From an uncultured Selenomonadales bacterium (lineage in GTDB: Bacteria > Bacillota > Negativicutes > Selenomonadales > Selenomonadaceae): DNA of 38,026 nucleotides. Positions 2,890 through 3,253 of this stretch are shown here, piece by piece; position 1 is the first letter of the stretch, and each line of letters begins with the position of its first letter. Under the pieces are notes generated by a model. It made no database searches and was not told where the DNA came from. It was given only the letters and a program-made list of their open reading frames with translations. The stretch is from positions 1-38,026 of the forward strand of contig OMWN01000050.1 in assembly GCA_900314765.1 (NCBI GenBank). Reading direction: 5' to 3'. Position numbers and translations under genes: made by a program.

Positions 2890-2973
2890 ATAAAAAAGAA
2901 AGGCGATACCACGGCCCCACTAGTAACTCCCATAAATGGTGTCGACCAAGCGGTTCAGGCGGTACGCCTTTCA
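2890..2973 (-). ncRNA. Candidate structured small RNA (~84 nt)
   Basis: On the minus strand a consensus-like promoter is followed by a short transcript whose ends pair. The 5' segment GAAAGGCGTACC (2961-2972) is complementary, with one bulge, to GGTATCGCCTTTC (2898-2910), which is followed by six T. The element therefore carries its own promoter, closing stem and intrinsic terminator. Inside lie short possible pairings such as ACC/GGT. A 25-codon hydrophobic reading frame (2856-2933, MGVTSGAVVS... ending FMIGAK) overlaps it and runs past the terminator, but has no ribosome site. The RNA family is not recognised. Confidence 0.55.
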
Positions 2974-2979
2974 AATGTA

Positions 2980-3008
2980 AGTATATCATAAAAGCTTAAT
3001 GAGGTCAA
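2980..3008 (-). promoter_or_regulatory. Sigma-A-type promoter of the small RNA
   Basis: On the minus strand TTGACC and TATACT are separated by exactly 17 bp. The predicted start falls at about 2973, just before the GAAAGGCG stem of the candidate RNA. Confidence 0.65.
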
Positions 3009-3063
3009 CAATAATGACAATCTGCACAGTGATTTTAAGTCAGATATGTGATTATCTCCGAGA

Positions 3064-3200
3064 CGATGCCAGTCCGAAGTAACTTAGCGATTTCATACAG
3101 GCTCTTTGGCTGGCTCCGAAGCGGCGTGTTTTCGCCTTTGCCGCGAGGAGCCCAGCATTAGAGCCTGTCGAAATTGCGCAGTGGATGAGGACTGGCATCG
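3064..3200. repeat. 137-bp nested palindrome
   Basis: Successive arms pair from outside inwards: CGATGCCAGTCC (3064-3075) with 3189-3200, ACAGGCTCT (3097-3105) with 3160-3168, GGCTCC (3112-3117) with 3147-3152, and GCGGC (3121-3125) with 3140-3144. The whole would fold as one long interrupted hairpin in DNA or RNA. It may be a miniature inverted-repeat element or a structured RNA. A 62-codon frame over it is an artefact of the repeat. Confidence 0.65.
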
Positions 3201-3253
3201 CCGAGGCATTTCCAATTTGACTTTGCGGACACATAGCCATAAAGTGAGATAAC

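Follow-up and report, generated by a model that had tools for sequence, protein, structure and literature searches.

A predicted stand-alone small RNA gene without detectable relatives in a Selenomonadaceae genome

Promoter, terminator and extent of the predicted RNA

The question raised by this locus is whether a short intergenic segment that combines a promoter, a closing stem, and a terminator is a small RNA gene in its own right. The window, i.e., the whole stretch of DNA analyzed, is a complete contig of 38 kb (C71) from a genome of 2.33 Mb, and the rest of it is mostly ordinary chromosome with genes for flagellin, glycerate kinase, rubrerythrins, and an EAL/GGDEF protein. The predicted small RNA occupies part of a ~1.2-kb gap flanked by two minus-strand units, a lipoprotein-like gene of 212 aa (4336-3698) and an operon of three genes without assigned function (2521-446). 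A lineage-specific stand-alone small RNA gene is the best explanation of the segment and is considered moderately probable.

The promoter described in the original prediction is present at its site (Table 1) and scored 10 out of 12 on the minus strand with the TG present. Seven nucleotides separate its -10 box from G2972, the first base of the closing stem, and this spacing puts the predicted +1 of the small RNA at G2972. While the transcript is a defined segment as proposed, its length was corrected from about 84 to 81 nt. The pairing of the 5' and 3' ends over ~12 bp was about right, the closing helix comprising 14 bp with one bulge, and the expected U6 directly follows its last base, C2898. 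A second terminator-like hairpin, absent from the original prediction, would end read-through transcripts. In genome G050, a stretch of 26 bp (AGCTTTTATGATATACTAGCATTTGA) is 92% identical to the promoter and occupies a promoter-like position before a gene.

Table 1. Features of the predicted small RNA locus. Positions are given 5' to 3' of the minus strand except for the whole promoter.
Feature	Position	Strand	Remarks
-35 box TTGACC	3008-3003	minus	read directly from the sequence
Spacer, 17 nt		minus	TG one base 5' of the -10 box, i.e., extended -10 (TG-A-TATACT)
-10 box TATACT	2985-2980	minus	whole promoter spans 2980-3008
Predicted small RNA, 81 nt	2972-2892	minus	ends in U6
5' arm of closing stem, GAAAGGCGUACC	2972-2961	minus	from fold and sequence
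3' arm of closing stem, GGUA-U-CGCCUUUC	2910-2898	minus	from fold and sequence; doubles as terminator stem
U-tract UUUUUUAUUUU	2897-2887	minus	U6 at 2897-2892, then AUUUU; terminator tail, possible Hfq tail
Second terminator-like hairpin, then TTTTACTTTT	2867-2835	minus	
25-codon hydrophobic frame MGVTSGAVVSPFFFIFIALFMIGAK	2933-2856	minus	one possible start, AUG 2933

Fold and strand specificity

The minus-strand RNA folds as one rod with an apical loop of 4 nt and a minimum free energy of -35.9 kcal/mol (z -4.5), which none of 200 shuffled sequences reached. The antisense RNA of the plus strand folds only to -24.2 kcal/mol, 11.7 kcal/mol worse, because the four G-U pairs of the rod work on the minus strand only. 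The structure is therefore attributed to the minus strand. According to the base-pair probabilities, almost every base outside the tail is paired, and the accessible-seed analysis based on them found no unpaired run of at least 6 nt in the RNA except the U-tail. Ordinary seed pairing would thus need an opening of the rod, and the lack of an open seed of this length, which is unusual for a base-pairing small RNA, counts against a real small RNA gene.

An alternative is a promoter beside a strong terminator without any RNA function. Such a pair could be a short by-product, an insulator between the repeat and lipoprotein side and the operon, or a decaying remnant, and it is a serious rival, although its probability is limited. 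It is consistent with an RNA that consists almost entirely of the terminator hairpin, with conservation that was not found, and with surroundings that evolve fast (a repeat copy and an orphan gene). In a hairpin without function, however, there would be no need for the closing stem to start precisely at the predicted +1 or for G-U pairs to favor one strand.

Two further classes of structured RNA were considered and rejected. A retron came into consideration since the 5' and 3' ends pair to close the RNA, as in retron msr-msd RNA, and since the neighboring 326-aa ArdC/ImmA-like protein has a weak match to PADLOC RT_III-A in the C-terminal part of that model. Unlike msr-msd RNA, the RNA is far too short and has its own terminator directly after the stem. 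No reverse transcriptase was matched among the window proteins scanned (the window being a whole contig, a gene beyond its end is conceivable), and the retron was rejected on this ground and for the shortness of the RNA. A CsrA sponge was rejected as the RNA contains, by reading, a single GGA-type site.

Expectation by chance

The window was scanned for units composed of a promoter scoring at least 9 out of 12, a closing stem of at least 10 bp starting 4-12 bases after the -10 box, and a T-run, with 600 dinucleotide-shuffled versions of the complete window as the null set. In the real window the scan returned a single site, the small RNA unit. The 600 shuffled windows returned 21 matches at a promoter score of at least 9/12 and one at 10/12 or more, corresponding to 0.035 and ~0.002 expected units per window, respectively. 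A looser scan of 438 kb of real sequence of the same genome, made up of a 400-kb sample of stretches and the window, returned 29 matches, among which the small RNA unit ranked first by stem length and GC.

A chance neighborhood of an unrelated promoter-like and hairpin-like part, with no transcription at all, is very improbable at these expected numbers, even though the unit was picked by eye out of 38 kb and no homologues were found in the collections searched. The gene-like architecture described in the original prediction is confirmed, exceeds chance expectation, and is specific to one strand; the interpretation as a whole is partly supported.

In the looser scan, one other extended -10 match of 10/12 occurs in the window, with a weaker, AT-rich stem (10 bp, 3 GC). 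This second candidate, at ~23191-23030 on the minus strand, has a promoter of the TTGAAA-17-TAATAT type with TG, a closing stem of 10 bp, and a strong terminator hairpin further on. It is a lesser sRNA-like candidate, antisense to the terminal part of a chemotaxis receptor gene.

Search for relatives

The family of the RNA had not been recognized in the original prediction, and neither Rfam threshold provided one. At the gathering cut-off the small RNA was without a match, the one detection in the window being a tRNA at another position, and the permissive search gave one chance match with an E-value of 1.9. The genome holds one copy of the small RNA sequence. Searches of 189 family genomes, 380 class genomes, phages, and viral contigs found no DNA relatives, and the plasmids yielded one 28-base match, judged to be chance, and otherwise no DNA relative. 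Over the family, class, phages, and plasmids, DNA similarity was confined to the sequence itself and to short promoter-like, terminator-like, or chance matches. A 31-bp match in genome G358, located toward the end of a frame that resembles a folylpolyglutamate synthase, was likewise attributed to chance because the plus-strand frame at the small RNA is without a family match.

The covariance search proposed in the original prediction was run in the family and the class with a model built from one sequence and hence of low sensitivity, and it returned weak matches and no relative. Matches in the 189 family genomes had E-values of 0.0098 or worse, and inspection of seven of them revealed ordinary terminators of short length, a gene end with a terminator (L045), and a tRNA 3' end (L043). 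The 380 class genomes gave only three weak matches with E-values of 0.003-0.01, of which two, at 34-48 nt, are short and additional to the family matches. A stem pattern matched 24 scattered sites of unrelated phyla in genome contigs, and the one examined further (L070) is a symmetric hairpin. In viral contigs, a stem pattern matched within the frame that encodes a phage protein.

By these searches the small RNA appears to be an orphan, without detectable relatives. The lack of a homologue in any collection searched, and with it of a sign of selection, weighs against a real small RNA gene. However, the only genome of the same genus is 82% complete. Together with the insensitive single-sequence model, this makes the absence of relatives weak evidence of true uniqueness. 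In the same-genus genome, the contig considered for synteny ends just past the rubrerythrin gene. The neighboring 177-aa gene, for which no relative was found in the 188 other family genomes, is an orphan as well, so the small RNA locus is regarded as lineage-specific.

Comparison with known small RNAs and possible mode of action

A bona fide small RNA gene has its own promoter, its own terminator, and no overlapping antisense transcription (PMC5826253). Judged by its sequence, the predicted gene fits this definition, with a consensus extended -10 promoter of 10/12, a stem followed by U6, and no plausible gene on the other strand. The 39-codon frame on the plus strand (2872-2991) had no Pfam or PHROGs match. 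With bona fide intergenic small RNAs of Firmicutes such as RsaE of Staphylococcus aureus, the predicted RNA shares the own promoter, the intrinsic terminator, the intergenic position, a length of ~100 nt or less, and the usual restriction to a species (PMC5826253). Unlike these RNAs, to which it has no sequence relation, it would form one closed rod without an open seed loop. Only 24% of 46 small RNA genes of S. aureus are conserved in other Staphylococcaceae (PMC5826253), so restriction to one species is normal for such genes. Given the lack of detectable relatives, the locus probably encodes a regulatory RNA of the ordinary kind that is confined to one species.

In the proposed mechanism, RNA polymerase would start at about G2972 from the extended -10 sigma-70 promoter and produce the 81-nt RNA. 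Its 5' end, locked in the closing stem, should be shielded from decay that depends on the 5' end, and the same stem would act as the intrinsic terminator and leave the U-tail. The RNA might then act in trans on mRNAs through a partial opening of the rod or the 4-nt apical loop. Hfq, for which the genome has a gene (C59), might help at the U-tail. Action in trans with Hfq is, at low confidence, the most likely mode, and it takes up only a minority share of the probability given to the small RNA gene.

If transcribed, the RNA would add a candidate to a class in which small RNAs have hardly been studied; the literature search found no survey of small RNAs in the class. The candidate is easy to test owing to its sharply defined start and end. 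By itself it opens no new kind of mechanism and would belong to the already known kind of bona fide intergenic small RNA genes.

The hydrophobic frame and the type I toxin reading

The 25-codon hydrophobic frame noted in the original prediction is present, and both reservations made there hold, i.e., no purine-rich site precedes AUG 2933 (sequence ACACCAUUUAUG) and the terminator lies inside the frame. The peptide resembles a membrane segment, but its hydrophobic core is in part the terminator U-run read as Phe and Ile codons. Pfam, PHROGs, and NCBIfam gave no match for it, and no homologue was found in 40 other genomes. The frame is probably not expressed.

For the transcript to be the mRNA of a type I toxin-like or small membrane peptide, transcription would have to pass the first U-run and continue to the second hairpin (2867-2835). 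Only one of the 108 other terminator-like sites examined has an equally hydrophobic frame over its U-run. Moreover, Lys is the last residue of the peptide, the stop codon falls within the 5' arm of the second terminator hairpin, and the apical loop carries the AUG. These features are offset by the lack of a Shine-Dalgarno sequence and of an alternative start codon, by the strong terminator within the frame, and by the U-run, which alone predicts hydrophobic codons. No antisense promoter scoring 9/12 or more faces the frame from nearby; the nearest plus-strand candidate (9/12 at 2690) is within chance expectation. With 25 aa the peptide is also shorter than known type I toxins, which comprise 28-60 aa in Bacillus subtilis and 34-59 aa in Clostridioides difficile (PMC6563280).

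The locus shares with type I toxin mRNAs (Fst/Ldr, BsrG/TxpA, and CD0956.2-like) a small RNA gene, a short hydrophobic frame, and a positive last residue. It differs from them in lacking a ribosome site, a clear antisense antitoxin, and a match to a toxin family, and in having a shorter frame that is interrupted by a terminator. The type I toxin reading is accordingly disfavored and considered improbable, and it keeps this small probability because the second hairpin just past the stop codon allows a read-through form of 138 nt. A dual-function RNA, in which the rod acts as a small RNA and terminator read-through yields an mRNA for the 25-aa membrane peptide, with the AUG at the apical loop and no ribosome site, is more doubtful still.

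Genomic setting and the downstream operon

The original prediction saw no gene near enough for control in cis. This was a fair description, as the next gene on the same strand begins ~370-430 nt past the U-run with a terminator-like hairpin in between. The alternative that the segment is a leader or attenuator of the operon gains from the position of the small RNA upstream on the same strand and from a stem and U-run that could serve as an attenuator. The distance of about 400 nt and the second hairpin make a cis leader unlikely, however, and a TTTATAAT box stands directly before the plausible GTG start of the 177-aa gene.

The operon-like set encodes the orphan 177-aa protein, a 326-aa ArdC/ImmA-like protein, and a 172-aa protein, and its genes are lineage-specific. 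The 326-aa protein has a HELGH motif, matches Pfam M78 below the cut-off, and has a weak PADLOC RT_III-A match (E-value 4e-5) confined to the C-terminal part of the model. The set at 446-2521 is possibly mobile or defense cargo at the contig end.

In the gap downstream of the small RNA, nested inverted repeats (TAGCGTAGG...CCTACGTTA and GGATTTAG...CTAAATCC) occur at 2700-2810. They are single-copy, and their stability as RNA is not unusual. Upstream of the small RNA, at 3030-3240 (core ~3055-3215), lies a copy of a palindromic repeat that was absent from the original prediction. It is a long imperfect palindrome with a core of ~155 bp and a folding energy of -82 kcal/mol as RNA (z -7.5). At least 40 copies with 87-95% identity occur on many contigs of the genome (40 of the 83 candidates were scored). 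The aligned copies suggest short AT-rich inverted ends (ATGAGTTTGTGA... / ...TTTCACAAACTCAT), and the sequences suggest a MITE-like or REP-like family.
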